Source: Thiohalobacter sp. IOR34 (GTDB lineage Bacteria > Pseudomonadota > Gammaproteobacteria > Thiohalobacterales > Thiohalobacteraceae). From it: 64,000 bases of DNA. Shown piece by piece: positions 50,094 through 54,746 of this stretch (its first letter is position 1; each line of letters opens with the position of its first letter). The DNA lies in assembly GCF_030406045.1 (NCBI RefSeq), contig NZ_CP128988.1, positions 407,438 through 471,437 on the forward strand. The letters are read 5' to 3'. The translations under genes and the position numbers were made by a program. The notes beneath the pieces were generated by a model. The model was not told the origin of the DNA. It saw only the letters and a program-made list of their open reading frames with translations, and did no database searches.

Positions 50094-50363
50094 TAGGGCC
50101 TGTTAACACTATCCCAATGGGTTCTGCTGGGACTCTTTTTCCGTCCAGCAAGGCAGAATGAGCGAAATGTAGTCAGTCTACATGAGCGAATGATAACGCC
50201 GCTGGGCGGAAAAAGAGCCCCAGCCCTCCGGGTTGCGCCTGAAAAAGCGCCACTCCGCGTTGCTCGTCGTTCATTTGGAGTCACCAAACCTCTCTCCTCG
50301 CGCCTTGATTGGCGCTTTTTTCAGGTGCAACAGAGCCCATTGGGATAGTGTTAACAGGCCCTA
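50094..50363. mobile_element. Element B: 270-bp TA-flanked cruciform element with 28-bp perfect terminal inverted repeats
   Basis: Bases 50094-50121 (beginning TAGGGCCTGTTAACACTATC) and 50336-50363 are perfect inverse complements. Arm 1 pairs 50127-50149 with 50201-50223 (CTGGGACTCTTTTTCCG type stem) and its loop has a small ATGTAG/CTACAT hairpin. Arm 2 pairs 50232-50251 (GTTGCGCCTGAAAAAGCGCC) with 50311-50331. Same three-way-junction layout as elements A and C. Its last TA (50362-50363) is also the first TA of element C1. It lies upstream of the peroxiredoxin-like gene; no coding capacity. Confidence 0.87.
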
Positions 50364-50622
50364 AGACAAACGATAACAAAGCCTCATTCAGAGCTTGCCA
50401 GGCGCCCCGGATCAAGGCGTGCTCCGCAGGGAATGGCCCGCCCTTGCCAAGGGGCACAACGCAGAGCCGGGGCGCCTGGCAAGCTCCCTGCGGGCGGGCC
50501 TCTGGACGGCCATCCGCAACGTTGCAATGGCTTGACAGGGAATCACCCTGCCGGCGCCATTGCGCCTTGCGGGCTGATCGTCCAGAGACCCGCTGAATGA
50601 GGCTTTGTTATCGTTTGTCTTA
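50362..50622. mobile_element. Element C copy 1: 261-bp cruciform element with 30-bp perfect terminal inverted repeats
   Basis: Bases 50362-50391 (beginning TAAGACAAACGATAACAAAG) and 50593-50622 are perfect inverse complements. Arm 1 pairs 50392-50410 (AGCTTGCCAGGCGCCCCGG) with 50467-50485 over 19 perfect pairs. Arm 2 pairs 50496-50508 (GGGCCTCTGGACG) with 50579-50591. It is followed by GTAAC. With element B it fills the 646-base gap between the peroxiredoxin-like gene and the M14 gene; the remaining ~80 bases before 50703 must hold that gene's promoter. Confidence 0.9.
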
Positions 50623-50702
50623 GTAACTATAACGCCGATGGCGGCGGCTTGCAGGTGGGCTGGTGTACCATAGCCGTTGCCAGTGCCAGTGCGGGAGCGC
50701 CC

Positions 50703-51732: not shown

Positions 51733-51912
51733 GAATGGCCACGGAACCCACGAAATTTTTCCTGGCAACGGAAGACGCGGAAATTCGAATGGCCACGAAA
51801 CCCACGAAAAAATCCATGTCAGGGACCCGCGTTTCGCACAGCTCCCTCAATAAATATCGTCCGTGTTTTCCGTGGCCATAGGCTTTTTCGTGGGTTTCGT
51901 GGCCATAAATCA
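51733..51912. repeat. Family E palindromic repeat (copy E1)
   Basis: Long imperfect palindrome built of GGCCACGAAACCCACGAAA and its inverse TTTCGTGGGTTTCGTGGCC, separated by a core with CATGTCAGGGACCCGCGTTT and ATATCGTCCGTGTTTTCC. The core recurs in inverted orientation in E2 (54351-54415). It accounts for nearly all of the 225 bases between the M14 gene and the next gene. Confidence 0.8.
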
Positions 51913-51935: not shown

Positions 51936-53021
51936 ATGCACATTCTTTGTTGCATAACCCCGCACGGTTTCGGTCATGCGGCGCAGACCGCGGTGGTGGT
52001 GAACGCCCTGCGCCAACGCGTGCCGGGGCTGCGCCTCAGCCTGCAGACGACGGTGCCGGAATGGTTCCTCGCCAGCCGTATCGAGGGGCCCTTCGAGCTG
52101 CATCCAGAGGCTACCGATTTCGGTTTGCTGATGGATTCCGCGCTGGACATCGATCTCGAGGCCAGTGCCCGGGCCTATGCCCGGCAGCATGCCGAGTGGT
52201 CGCAGCGGCTGGCGGCGCAGGTGGATTTCCTCCGCCGCCTGGAGCCTGACCTGGTGCTGGCCAACGTCCCCTGCCTGCCGCTGCTGGCGGCCCGCCAGGC
52301 AGGGTGTCCCGCCGTGGCCCTCTGTTCCCTCAACTGGCTCGGCATCTACCGCCACTACTTCGCCGGGCGGCCGGAGGCCCCGGCGGTACTGGCGCAGATG
52401 CGCACGGCCTATCAGTCCGCCGATGTCTTCCTGGCCCCGGAACCGGCCATGCCCATGCCGGAGCTGGACGGGGTGCGTCCGATCGGGCCACTGGCGCGGC
52501 TTGGCCGCCGGCGGCGGGAGGCGATCGATGCCCGCTTCGGCCTGGCGCCGGATGCGCGGTTGGTGCTGGTCGCCCTCGGTGGTGTCGGGGCACGGCTGCC
52601 GGTGGGGCGCTGGCCGCGGCAGCCGGACGTGCATTACCTGGTGCCGGCGGCCTGGGGGGTAGCGCATCCCCAGGCAATACCTCTGGAGAGTCTGGAAATG
52701 GACTTCAGTGATCTGCTGGCCAGTGCCGATGCCCTGCTCGGCAAGTGCGGCTATGGAACGGTCGCCGAGTGTGCCTGCAATGCCACGCCGCTGCTCTATA
52801 TCCCGCGTCCGGAATGGCCGGAGGAGCCTTGGCTGCTCGATTGGCTGCGGCGCCACGGCAACGCCGAGCCGGTAGCGCGCGAGCAGCTGGAGGCGGGGGG
52901 ACCGGCTGAGGCCCTGACACGGCTCTGGGCCCAGCCACGGTCGCGGCCGCCGCGGCCGGATGGGGCCGGGCAGGCGGTGGCGCAGTTGATGGCCCTGCTG
53001 GGGATGGGCGGGGGGCAATGA
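51936..53021 (+). CDS. GT-B fold glycosyltransferase-like protein
   Basis: 361 residues. The N-terminal ILCCITPHGFGHAAQTAVVV resembles the start of UDP-glycosyltransferases of the MurG/GT28 type (glycine-rich GxGH loop). The C-terminal half has the nucleotide-sugar-binding-like LLASADALLGKCGYGTVAEC and LLYIPRPEWPEEPWL. No membrane segment. Acceptor and donor unknown. The ATG follows a GTGACGC sequence with no strong ribosome-binding site. It is followed by soxXA after 81 bases, but no functional link is evident. Confidence 0.78.
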   Translation: MHILCCITPHGFGHAAQTAVVVNALRQRVPGLRLSLQTTVPEWFLASRIEGPFELHPEATDFGLLMDSALDIDLEASARAYARQHAEWSQRLAAQVDFLRRLEPDLVLANVPCLPLLAARQAGCPAVALCSLNWLGIYRHYFAGRPEAPAVLAQMRTAYQSADVFLAPEPAMPMPELDGVRPIGPLARLGRRRREAIDARFGLAPDARLVLVALGGVGARLPVGRWPRQPDVHYLVPAAWGVAHPQAIPLESLEMDFSDLLASADALLGKCGYGTVAECACNATPLLYIPRPEWPEEPWLLDWLRRHGNAEPVAREQLEAGGPAEALTRLWAQPRSRPPRPDGAGQAVAQLMALLGMGGGQ

Positions 53022-53102: not shown

Positions 53103-54296
53103 ATGAACCTGGGCAGTCGCATGAGTCTCCTGCTGGTGGCGCTGTTGAGCGTGCCCACGGTGCAGGCCGGCCGTTACGTCCCCTGGCAGGCCGAGGGGCT
53201 GAGCATCCCCCGGCCGCTGGGTGGCCTGCAGGGTGATCCGGCACGCGGTCGGGCGGTGGTCATCGACAGCCACCAGGGCAACTGCCTGGCCTGCCACCGG
53301 CTGCCGATAGCGGACCAGCCCTTCCAGGGCAACCTGGGTCCACCCTTGGCCGGCATCGGCGCGCGACTCAGTCCGGGGGAGCTGCGCCTGCGGGTCGCCG
53401 ACGAACGGCGCCTCAACCCGGAGACGGTGATGCCCCCCTTCCATGTCGATCCGCGCAGTCTCAACCAGGTCGCCTTCGCCGTGGAGGGGCAGACCTTCCT
53501 CAGTGCCCAGCAGGTGGAGGACGTGGTCGCCTATCTCTCGACCCTGACCGAGCCGGGCGAGGCCGGGACGCCGCCTGTCGCTGCATCTCCGGGGAACGGC
53601 CTGCATTCCGGCTACGACTACCTGAAACCCGAGACCCGCGCCATGCAGGACGACGAGTTCGCCAATCCCGGCATGCCGACCGTCGACCGGGGCCGGCGGC
53701 TGTTCAATGCCGAGGGCGAGAACGGCAAGAGCTGCGCCAGTTGTCACGGTGAGGACGGTGAGGGGCTGGACCCGGCGCGCATCGCCAGCTACCCGGTCTA
53801 CGACCCGGACAGCGGCCGGCCGCGCACCCTGCAGGAACAGATCAACATCTGCTGGGAGGACCAGCTCGACAACATCCCCTACGTCTATGACTGTACCGAG
53901 CTGGTGGCCCTGGAGGCTTTCGTCCGCCACCGGGCGCGAGGCACCCCGGTGCAGGTCGATATCGACGGGCCGCTGCGGCCCTTCTACGAGGCCGGCCGCA
54001 AGCTCTACCATACCCGTTTCGGTCAGGCGAACCTGGCCTGCACCCACTGCCACGATCTGCATGCCGGCCAGTGGCTGCGCGGCCAGCAGTTGACCCAGGG
54101 ACAGAGCAACGGCTTCCCGGAATACCGCCTGGGCAGCGGCCGCATCACCAGCCTGCAGCGGCGGTTCTCGGAATGCTTCCGTTCCTTCCGTGCCGAACCC
54201 TTCGAGCCGGGTTCGCAGGCCTATATCGATCTGGAGGTATACGTGAATGCGCGCGGCAACGGCCTGAAGATCGAGACCCCGGCGGTGCGCTACTGA
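53103..54296 (+). CDS. Fused SoxX-SoxA sulfur-oxidation c-type cytochrome
   Basis: 397 residues with GGGAGG upstream and a signal peptide (MSLLLVALLSVPTVQA). The SoxX part (about 25-150) has heme motif CLACH (61-65) and the distal Met in ETVMPPFHV (Met110). After a short linker, the SoxA part (about 166-397) has heme motifs CASCH (211-215) and CTHCH (313-317), a probable disulfide pair Cys250/Cys264, and Cys358 in RRFSECFRS, the expected persulfide-modified heme ligand. SoxXA attaches thiosulfate to SoxYZ in the periplasm. SoxX and SoxA are normally separate chains. No soxYZ, soxB or soxCD is in the window, so partners must be elsewhere. Confidence 0.88.
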   Translation: MNLGSRMSLLLVALLSVPTVQAGRYVPWQAEGLSIPRPLGGLQGDPARGRAVVIDSHQGNCLACHRLPIADQPFQGNLGPPLAGIGARLSPGELRLRVADERRLNPETVMPPFHVDPRSLNQVAFAVEGQTFLSAQQVEDVVAYLSTLTEPGEAGTPPVAASPGNGLHSGYDYLKPETRAMQDDEFANPGMPTVDRGRRLFNAEGENGKSCASCHGEDGEGLDPARIASYPVYDPDSGRPRTLQEQINICWEDQLDNIPYVYDCTELVALEAFVRHRARGTPVQVDIDGPLRPFYEAGRKLYHTRFGQANLACTHCHDLHAGQWLRGQQLTQGQSNGFPEYRLGSGRITSLQRRFSECFRSFRAEPFEPGSQAYIDLEVYVNARGNGLKIETPAVRY

Positions 54297-54322: not shown

Positions 54323-54448
54323 ATAGCCACGAAACCCACGAAATCCACGAAAAGGCGGAAAACACGGACGATATCTATTGAGGGAACTGCGCGAAACGCG
54401 GGTCCCTGACATGGATTTTTTCGTGGATTTCGTGGGTTCCGTGGCCAT
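54323..54448. repeat. Family E palindromic repeat (copy E2)
   Basis: ATAGCCACGAAACCCACGAA at the left and TTTCGTGGGTTCCGTGGCCAT at the right form the stem (split here as TTTCGTGGG and TTCCGTGGCCAT). The core ACACGGACGATATCTATTGA and CGGGTCCCTGACATGG is the inverse of the E1 core. It directly abuts element C2. Confidence 0.8.
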
Positions 54449-54452
54449 ATAC

Positions 54453-54713
54453 TAAGACAAACGATAACAAAGCCTCATTCAGAGCTTGCCAGGCGCCCCG
54501 GATCAAGGCGTGCTCCGCAGGGAATGGCCCGCCCTTGCCAAGGGGCACAACGCAGAGCCGGGGCGCCTGGCAAGCTCCCTGCGGGCGGGCCTCTGGACGG
54601 CCATCCGCAACGTTGCAATGGCTTGACAGGGAATCACCCTGCCGGCGCCATTGCGCCTTGCGGGCTGATCGACCAGAGACCCGCTGAATGAGGCTTTGTT
54701 ATCGTTTGTCTTA
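54453..54713. mobile_element. Element C copy 2 (one mismatch to copy 1)
   Basis: Same 261-bp length, orientation and sequence as copy 1 (50362-50622), differing where I can see only at 54672 (A for T). That substitution breaks one pair of arm 2 (CGACCAGAG versus CGTCCAGAG). Flanks differ from copy 1: ATAC on the left, GTATC on the right. It lies in the 450-base gap between the convergent soxXA and lipA genes; the gap otherwise contains E2 and no gene. Confidence 0.9.
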
Positions 54714-54746
54714 GTATCATGACCCGGCTTTGCCCTTGCTCTGCGG

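Follow-up and report, generated by a model that had tools for sequence, protein, structure and literature searches.

SoxXA opens the Sox pathway. It is usually a heterodimer of two chains and is usually encoded together with soxYZ and soxB. A gene of Thiohalobacter sp. IOR34 deviates on both counts: it encodes SoxX and SoxA in a single reading frame and is placed far from soxYZ and soxB. Is this a true fusion, and what could a solitary SoxXA be good for? The window, which here means the whole stretch of DNA analysed, comprises 64,000 nucleotides of the forward strand (assembly GCF_030406045.1, contig NZ_CP128988.1). A sequence-only reading of it had claimed that SoxX and SoxA are fused in this order, that the gene is not decayed and that the other sox genes are missing nearby.

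The architecture as such is not new. A fused triheme SoxXA is already known from Halorhodospira, where SoxX is joined to the N-terminus of a diheme SoxA to make one triheme protein (PMC8877833), and the idea of an undescribed natural fusion was therefore dropped. According to the excerpts of that paper, thiosulfate-using Halorhodospira species have the fused SoxXA, two non-users are devoid of Sox enzymes, and the fused form is reported as a trait of the Halorhodospiraceae (PMC8877833). The window protein shares with it the X-A order, the diheme SoxA and the single chain, a likeness judged by the published description. It differs in that its genome has an ordinary SoxXA as well, whereas the excerpts of PMC8877833 name no second one for Halorhodospira. 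Any other SoxX-SoxA fusion was looked for in vain in the excerpts of PMC2147049, PMC11582611, PMC6382920, PMC3440390, PMC11237559, PMC6879331, PMC4003848, PMC6397845, PMC9774590, PMC6335251, PMC2958825 and PMC13019369. Nor did we find, in the literature on SoxXA fusion, a description of a solitary fused SoxXA beside an ordinary one. Related joinings are in print, as the excerpts tell, for SoxYZ (PMC11237559) and for TsdBA (PMC11237559, PMC9774590). More interesting than the architecture is the presence of a second, differently typed SoxXA beside the ordinary one, in a clade with repeated single-chain forms.

A type 1 SoxXA in one reading frame

The product of the gene is a type 1 SoxXA, as follows from both curated models, the diheme nature of its SoxA, the ligands and the predicted folds. 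The models, TIGR04485 for SoxX and TIGR04484 for SoxA, are curated NCBIfam equivalog models, and both are passed within one unbroken frame. The SoxX model yields 82.6 bits with the whole protein and 84.7 bits with the half alone (cut-off 61); the SoxA model yields 193.4 and 195.1 bits, respectively (cut-off 110). The domain search thus bears out the fusion and its X-A order. Pfam recognises a SoxA-TsdA cytochrome c domain. The N-terminal half also passes the broad Pfam model Cytochrom_C (31.5 bits, cut-off 21.3), as expected, since SoxX is a class I cytochrome domain; its remaining NCBIfam matches amount to 23.3 bits at most and all stay under their cut-offs. Two other weak matches to the SoxX model in the same genome score 23 bits, as compared with 84.7 for the fused X half.

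The gene was rightly considered as not decayed: its frame is intact, it encodes three CxxCH motifs, and M110, C250 and C358 occupy the expected positions of the further ligands (Table 1). Every heme and ligand position is invariant in the rows used from the clade discussed below (all 20 for SoxA and all 19 with letters for SoxX), and the Cys and Met ligand positions are likewise kept in each of the 7 rows of type 1 used for comparison. That M110 is the distal ligand of the SoxX heme is a role that we presume from the known family. The protein has one hydrophobic segment at its N-terminus and none at the SoxX-SoxA junction.

Table 1. Features of the fused gene (window positions) and of the other sox genes of the same genome (contig positions, marked C1)
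Feature	Position	Strand	Remarks
Fused soxXA gene	53103..54296	+	397 aa
Putative signal peptide, residues 1-22 (...VQA)	53103..53168	+	By eye; hydropathy peak 2.68 over 11 residues
SoxX domain, residues 58-148	53274..53546	+	TIGR04485; fold match residues 24-149
SoxX heme motif CLACH, residues 61-65	53283..53297	+	Kept in 19/19 clade SoxX rows
M110, expected distal ligand of SoxX heme	53430..53432	+	19/19 clade rows
Linker, residues 149-168, 20 aa, Pro/Gly-containing	53547..53606	+	Stands where unfused SoxA has its leader
Diheme SoxA domain, residues 189-396	53667..54290	+	TIGR04484; fold match 1h31_A
SoxA heme-1 motif CASCH, residues 211-215	53733..53747	+	Absent from the other SoxA of the genome
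C250, expected Cys ligand of SoxA heme 1	53850..53852	+	20/20 rows; alignment to 1h31_A
SoxA heme-2 motif CTHCH, residues 313-317	54039..54053	+	CxxCH motif
C358, expected active-site Cys ligand of heme 2	54174..54176	+	20/20 rows; alignment to 1h31_A
SoxB	C1:746596-748308		Only one over cut-off
Second SoxA	C1:748488-749111		
SoxZ	Between SoxY and SoxA of the distant cluster (C1)		
SoxY	C1:749768-750079		Only one over cut-off
Second SoxX	C1:750268-750498		

AlphaFold2, run on an alignment of 47 rows (A3), produced a model with a pLDDT of 91.2 and a pTM of 0.88. With a shallower alignment of 23 rows (A2) the model was poorer (73.8 and 0.61), and the way in which the domains are arranged is therefore sensitive to the depth of the alignment. 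The SoxA half of the A3 model fits 1h31_A with a Z of 32.4 and 1.4 Å over 232 residues, its SoxX half fits the SoxX chain 2oz1_D with a Z of 18.2 and 1.9 Å over 125 residues. Other cytochromes among the matches listed do not exceed a Z of 12.1; the class I cytochromes c stay at or below 8.7, and the value of about 12 belongs to one diheme cytochrome. A sequence search of solved structures gave 11 matches under E 0.1, all of them SoxA, SoxX or thiosulfate dehydrogenase. The best of them come from Rhodovulum sulfidophilum and Paracoccus pantotrophus, with their SoxA and SoxX chains. From the modelling, an internal 1:1 complex of SoxX and SoxA within the single chain is predicted.

Two other identities were rejected. 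A generic class I cytochrome c in the N-terminal half, which the sequence-only reading had named as one outcome that would overturn it, is ruled out by the 84.7 bits and the Z of 18.2 for SoxX. TsdA is ruled out because the sequence match is confined to residues 309-390 (28.9 bits versus 192.9 for SoxA 1h31_A) and the fold matches with a Z of about 8 over 105 residues only. The type 1 SoxXA of R. sulfidophilum (1h31) and P. pantotrophus (2c1d) have hemes, ligand positions and folds in common with the window protein. They consist, however, of two chains, while the window protein is one chain with one putative signal peptide, encoded by a solitary gene. TsdBA of Marichromatium purpuratum (5lo9) offers a parallel of another kind, since, according to the excerpts, a SoxA-like thiosulfate enzyme is fused there to an electron-accepting cytochrome (PMC11237559, PMC9774590). 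It is a thiosulfate dehydrogenase, not a SoxXA, and it matches the model of the fused protein weakly, with a Z of 7.9 and an rmsd of 18 Å.

Of course, two genes could have been joined by a mere base-calling frameshift. The arrangement in the unfused relatives would favour such an artefact, as overlap is common there: six of the eight soxX-soxA pairs measured overlap, five by 4 bp and one by 1 bp, and the other two are separated by gaps of 11-12 bp. In eight unfused relatives, however, the hydropathy of the SoxA leader peaks at 2.05-3.01, whereas the linker DNA, read in its three frames, offers best 11-residue values of 0.23, 0.96 and 0.01. With a hydrophobic segment in none of the linker frames, the correction of a frameshift could not yield a normal exported SoxA. 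Further fused relatives exist, moreover, and the architecture is published. A hidden frameshift at the SoxX-SoxA junction is unlikely, and to explain the gene as an artefact is hardly credible; the split into two genes that had been considered as a danger to the earlier claim did not materialise.

The ordinary sox cluster and the surroundings of the fused gene

The genome (G000) consists of one contig of 2,961,281 bases, is listed as 100% complete and contains the window at C1:407438-471437. An ordinary soxX-Y-Z-A-B cluster is found at C1:746-751 kb, at a distance of about 287 kb; the nearest soxY and soxB lie about 285-290 kb from the fused gene. Within the window, no further soxA, soxX, soxY or soxB over cut-off was detected besides the fused gene, so the earlier statement that soxY and soxB are missing there is correct, and the place of soxYZ and soxB in the genome, which had been asked for, is now known. 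Not supported is the view that the gene stands apart because the other sox genes are missing, since the distant cluster has a SoxX and a SoxA of its own. Just downstream of this cluster, a chemoreceptor with a nitrate/nitrite-sensing NIT domain (Pfam) is encoded (L003:6232-8274, minus strand).

The two SoxXA are of different types. Type 1 is defined by a diheme SoxA, types 2 and 3 by a monoheme one (excerpts of PMC4003848). The ordinary SoxA is monoheme; it has lost the first heme motif and kept one CxxCH, while the fused SoxA has two. The genome therefore carries two SoxXA of different types, the fused one being the second, triheme, type 1 and solitary. A comparable case is Starkeya novella, whose second soxA likewise encodes a diheme type 1 SoxA beside another type; it differs by belonging to a truncated sox operon, and a fusion is not mentioned in the excerpts (PMC4003848).

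The gene had further been described as boxed by repeats, and in fact it is flanked by identical direct copies of 265 nt (50361-50625 and 54452-54716) and by inverted arms of 80 nt, 95% complementary (51793-51872 and 54356-54435). The arms consist of CCACGAAA-type repeats and enclose the fused gene together with its upstream neighbour. The direct copies, however, belong to an element of about 267 nt that is dispersed in the genome and bounded by perfect terminal inverted repeats (about 31-34 nt). With 40 of 52 candidates scored, at least 21 genomic copies are 97-100% identical and three are 73-82% identical. Some pairs of the element, that of the window included, are just 4-6 kb apart. Judged from its sequence, it looks like a recently active MITE. 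Since the direct repeats are dispersed, they say nothing special about the fused gene, and the idea that repeats mark the fusion was dismissed. For the upstream neighbour (51936-53021), neither Pfam nor NCBIfam gave a match at 0.001. A simple scan, which is weak evidence, revealed neither a sigma-70-like promoter nor a terminator.

Relatives and the number of fusions

In the order, a SoxA-like match at 1e-20 was obtained in 10 of the 11 genomes searched and a close two-domain match in two, the window genome itself and G008; the latter is listed as 7% contaminated, and its fused copy may come from another organism. In the class, 21 of 369 evenly sampled genomes match at 1e-33. Eleven of these 21, the window genome included, belong to a clade of accessory SoxXA, of which G108 probably has a further member cut by a contig end. 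A sample of 398 genomes of the phylum gave 42 matches; besides that of the window genome there are 41, with a SoxA identity of at most 46% among the matches listed, and none of those listed spans both halves, the widest covering residues 102-396 in a 292-aa frame. The scan of genome contigs led to 15 loci, that of viral contigs to no relative, neither of two pattern matches being confirmed.

In a SoxA tree of 62 rows the window protein groups with 20 others (100, starred), and this accessory clade is also recovered in the joined tree of SoxX and SoxA (100/100, starred). It adjoins the mostly alphaproteobacterial type 1 SoxA (97, starred, for type 1 plus the clade) and is apart from the ordinary gammaproteobacterial SoxA of the 62-row tree. 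If L046 is counted, whose SoxX is truncated by a contig end and which was excluded from both trees, the clade has 22 members, four of them fused: the window protein, G008 (L012), L041 and G325 (L062), of which the latter three each pass both TIGR04485 and TIGR04484. The others have neighbouring soxX and soxA genes, except G298, where SoxX is off the contig and SoxA has its own leader. Such gammaproteobacterial pairs (L043, L044, L048) are of the same clade as the window gene, and they differ by being two genes, usually overlapping or nearly touching, with a SoxA that has its own leader. An additional SoxA is present elsewhere in 12 of 12 clade genomes checked. At the thresholds used, SoxY was found in 11 of the 12 (not in G077) and SoxB also in 11 (not in G325).

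The neighbours of 16 loci were compared, L052 and L173 containing the same genes. Besides SoxX, only generic families are common to three or more loci; named by eye, they are response regulators, ABC ATPases and helicases. A clade-wide neighbour that ties the fused or accessory SoxXA to soxYZ or soxB did not emerge from these 16 loci. In G025, exceptionally, a SoxB gene is about 4 kb from the accessory SoxXA. Flanking genes are common to the sister pairs L041/L048, L044/L050 and L046/L047.

How often were SoxX and SoxA joined? In the joined tree (27 rows, linker removed) the window protein and that of G008 are sisters (95/83) and stand beside the unfused L043 (96/98); L041 is sister to the unfused L048 (100/100), and L062 is apart. 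The quick tree of SoxA only, unlike the joined one, splits the window from G008. L014, which is from the same record as L050/L061 and has a gap inside SoxA, was excluded from the joined tree. A tree of SoxX only was not relied on, its long generic rows being badly placed and L055_8468 having been given the SoxX of the other pair on its locus. The AU test, applied to groups chosen after the sequences were seen, rejects a single clade of all four fusions (p 5e-5), of window, G008 and L041 (2e-5) and of L041 and L062 (2e-4); it does not reject one origin for window, G008 and L062 (p 0.14). For the clade one must therefore assume at least two fusion events, or three if the best tree is followed. 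Three changes are required by the starred branches, a count that by itself cannot separate fusion from fission. We infer fusion as the direction, since after a fission a leader would have had to arise anew.

Fusions of lower similarity occur in Indioceanicola profundi, G143, G292 and G348 (four loci: L072, L073, L075, L085). They, too, have X followed by A in a single chain with three CxxCH, and all pass both curated models. They differ from the window protein by an identity of 30-34% and by their place in another part of the SoxA tree. The fused gene of Indioceanicola (L085) belongs to a sox cluster and is followed by SoxY (154.6 bits, cut-off 125), SoxZ (110, cut-off 76), SoxB (823, cut-off 550) and SoxC (610, cut-off 420). 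For G143 and G292, the search revealed no SoxA besides the fused one, with SoxY and SoxB present. A possible further fused SoxXA is seen at G029:C1:1253650-1254717, with 29% identity over residues 39-393 in an open frame of 533 aa.

Proposed function and its rivals

In SoxAX, the Cys-ligated heme is the site at which thiosulfate is conjugated, before it is handed to a cysteine of SoxYZ, and the electrons exit via a His/Met heme (excerpts of PMC6879331). The residues corresponding to this mechanism are all present in the fused protein. With a probability of about 0.7, we regard it as a secreted single-chain triheme type 1 SoxXA, the second of its genome, which arose by fusion and puts thiosulfate onto the only SoxY. 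Neighbouring soxX and soxA would have fused, with loss of the SoxA signal peptide and a linker of about 20 residues in its place, and one export event would bring both halves at a ratio of 1:1. At the SoxA heme that has C358 as its ligand, thiosulfate or a related sulfur anion would be oxidatively joined to a cysteine of the carrier, and the electrons would flow to the SoxX heme (H65/M110) and further to a soluble cytochrome. The loaded carrier would be the genome's only SoxY, from which SoxB would then free sulfate. The distant cluster is the simplest partner set, because the genome has one SoxY and one SoxB. For a solitary gene, the fusion would secure 1:1 export and assembly. Activity, partner, substrate and the benefit of fusing are what we infer here. 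By analogy, a single-chain SoxXA is probably competent, since the Indioceanicola fusion is part of a sox cluster, the fusions of G143 and G292 are the sole SoxA found in their genomes, and those Halorhodospira species that use thiosulfate have the fused form.

What counts against a second SoxXA that serves the common SoxY is that the ordinary SoxXA already fills the known role and that a conserved neighbour linking the gene to soxYZ or soxB was not seen, with no SoxB match in G325 and no SoxY match in G077 at the thresholds used. The poorer model from the shallow alignment and, weakly, the negative promoter scan point the same way. The protein might instead act outside the Sox cycle, using another carrier or a small thiol, forming tetrathionate like TsdA, or acting on a substrate other than thiosulfate. 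In favour of this alternative, the gene stands apart from soxYZ in the clade loci compared, the proteins form their own clade and co-occur with an ordinary SoxA wherever checked (12/12), and alphaproteobacterial type 1 SoxXA exist in the company of an 'AACIE arm' protein and a molybdopterin oxidoreductase. It is nevertheless improbable: the Cys and Met ligand positions equal those of the Paracoccus/Rhodovulum type, the SoxA half is, in sequence as in structure, much closer to SoxA than to TsdA, and the sole SoxY found in the genome is that of the ordinary cluster. Even less may be said for a paralogue of recent acquisition that is redundant or little expressed and now being lost. Its rarity in the order (a close relative in merely 2 of 11 genomes, the window genome included) and its location between copies of the dispersed element would be understandable, yet the frame is intact, all ligands are conserved, and the clade retains such genes across many lineages, which makes a gene on its way out very improbable.

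A broader idea is that the solitary type 1 SoxXA, which many gammaproteobacterial sulfur oxidisers would have in addition to the ordinary enzyme with monoheme SoxA, have a separate sulfur-conjugating job, distinguished by substrate, carrier or redox regime, and that single chains evolved repeatedly because, away from the sox operon, such an enzyme depends on obligate export and assembly at a ratio of 1:1. We consider this as conceivable, but rather doubtful. The recurrence of two SoxXA types per genome across the clade in any case poses a testable question, namely why sulfur oxidisers keep both. Since fused SoxXA occurs in several other lineages and arose more than once, it would seem to be an unsafe marker for the Halorhodospiraceae. 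As an intact natural fusion, the window protein provides a one-chain SoxXA of fixed 1:1 composition for structural and electron-transfer work.

Type 1 soxX-soxY-soxZ-soxA clusters with no soxB in view are carried by plasmids of Methylobacterium and Neorhizobium (L088, L138) and of Roseomonas (L139). A SoxY-related protein annotated as 'AACIE arm' accompanies them in L088 and L138, a molybdopterin oxidoreductase in L088 and L139; by their gene content these clusters would seem to be a Sox-like module. A plasmid of Allomeiothermus silvanus (L087) has two soxX and two soxA around one soxB.
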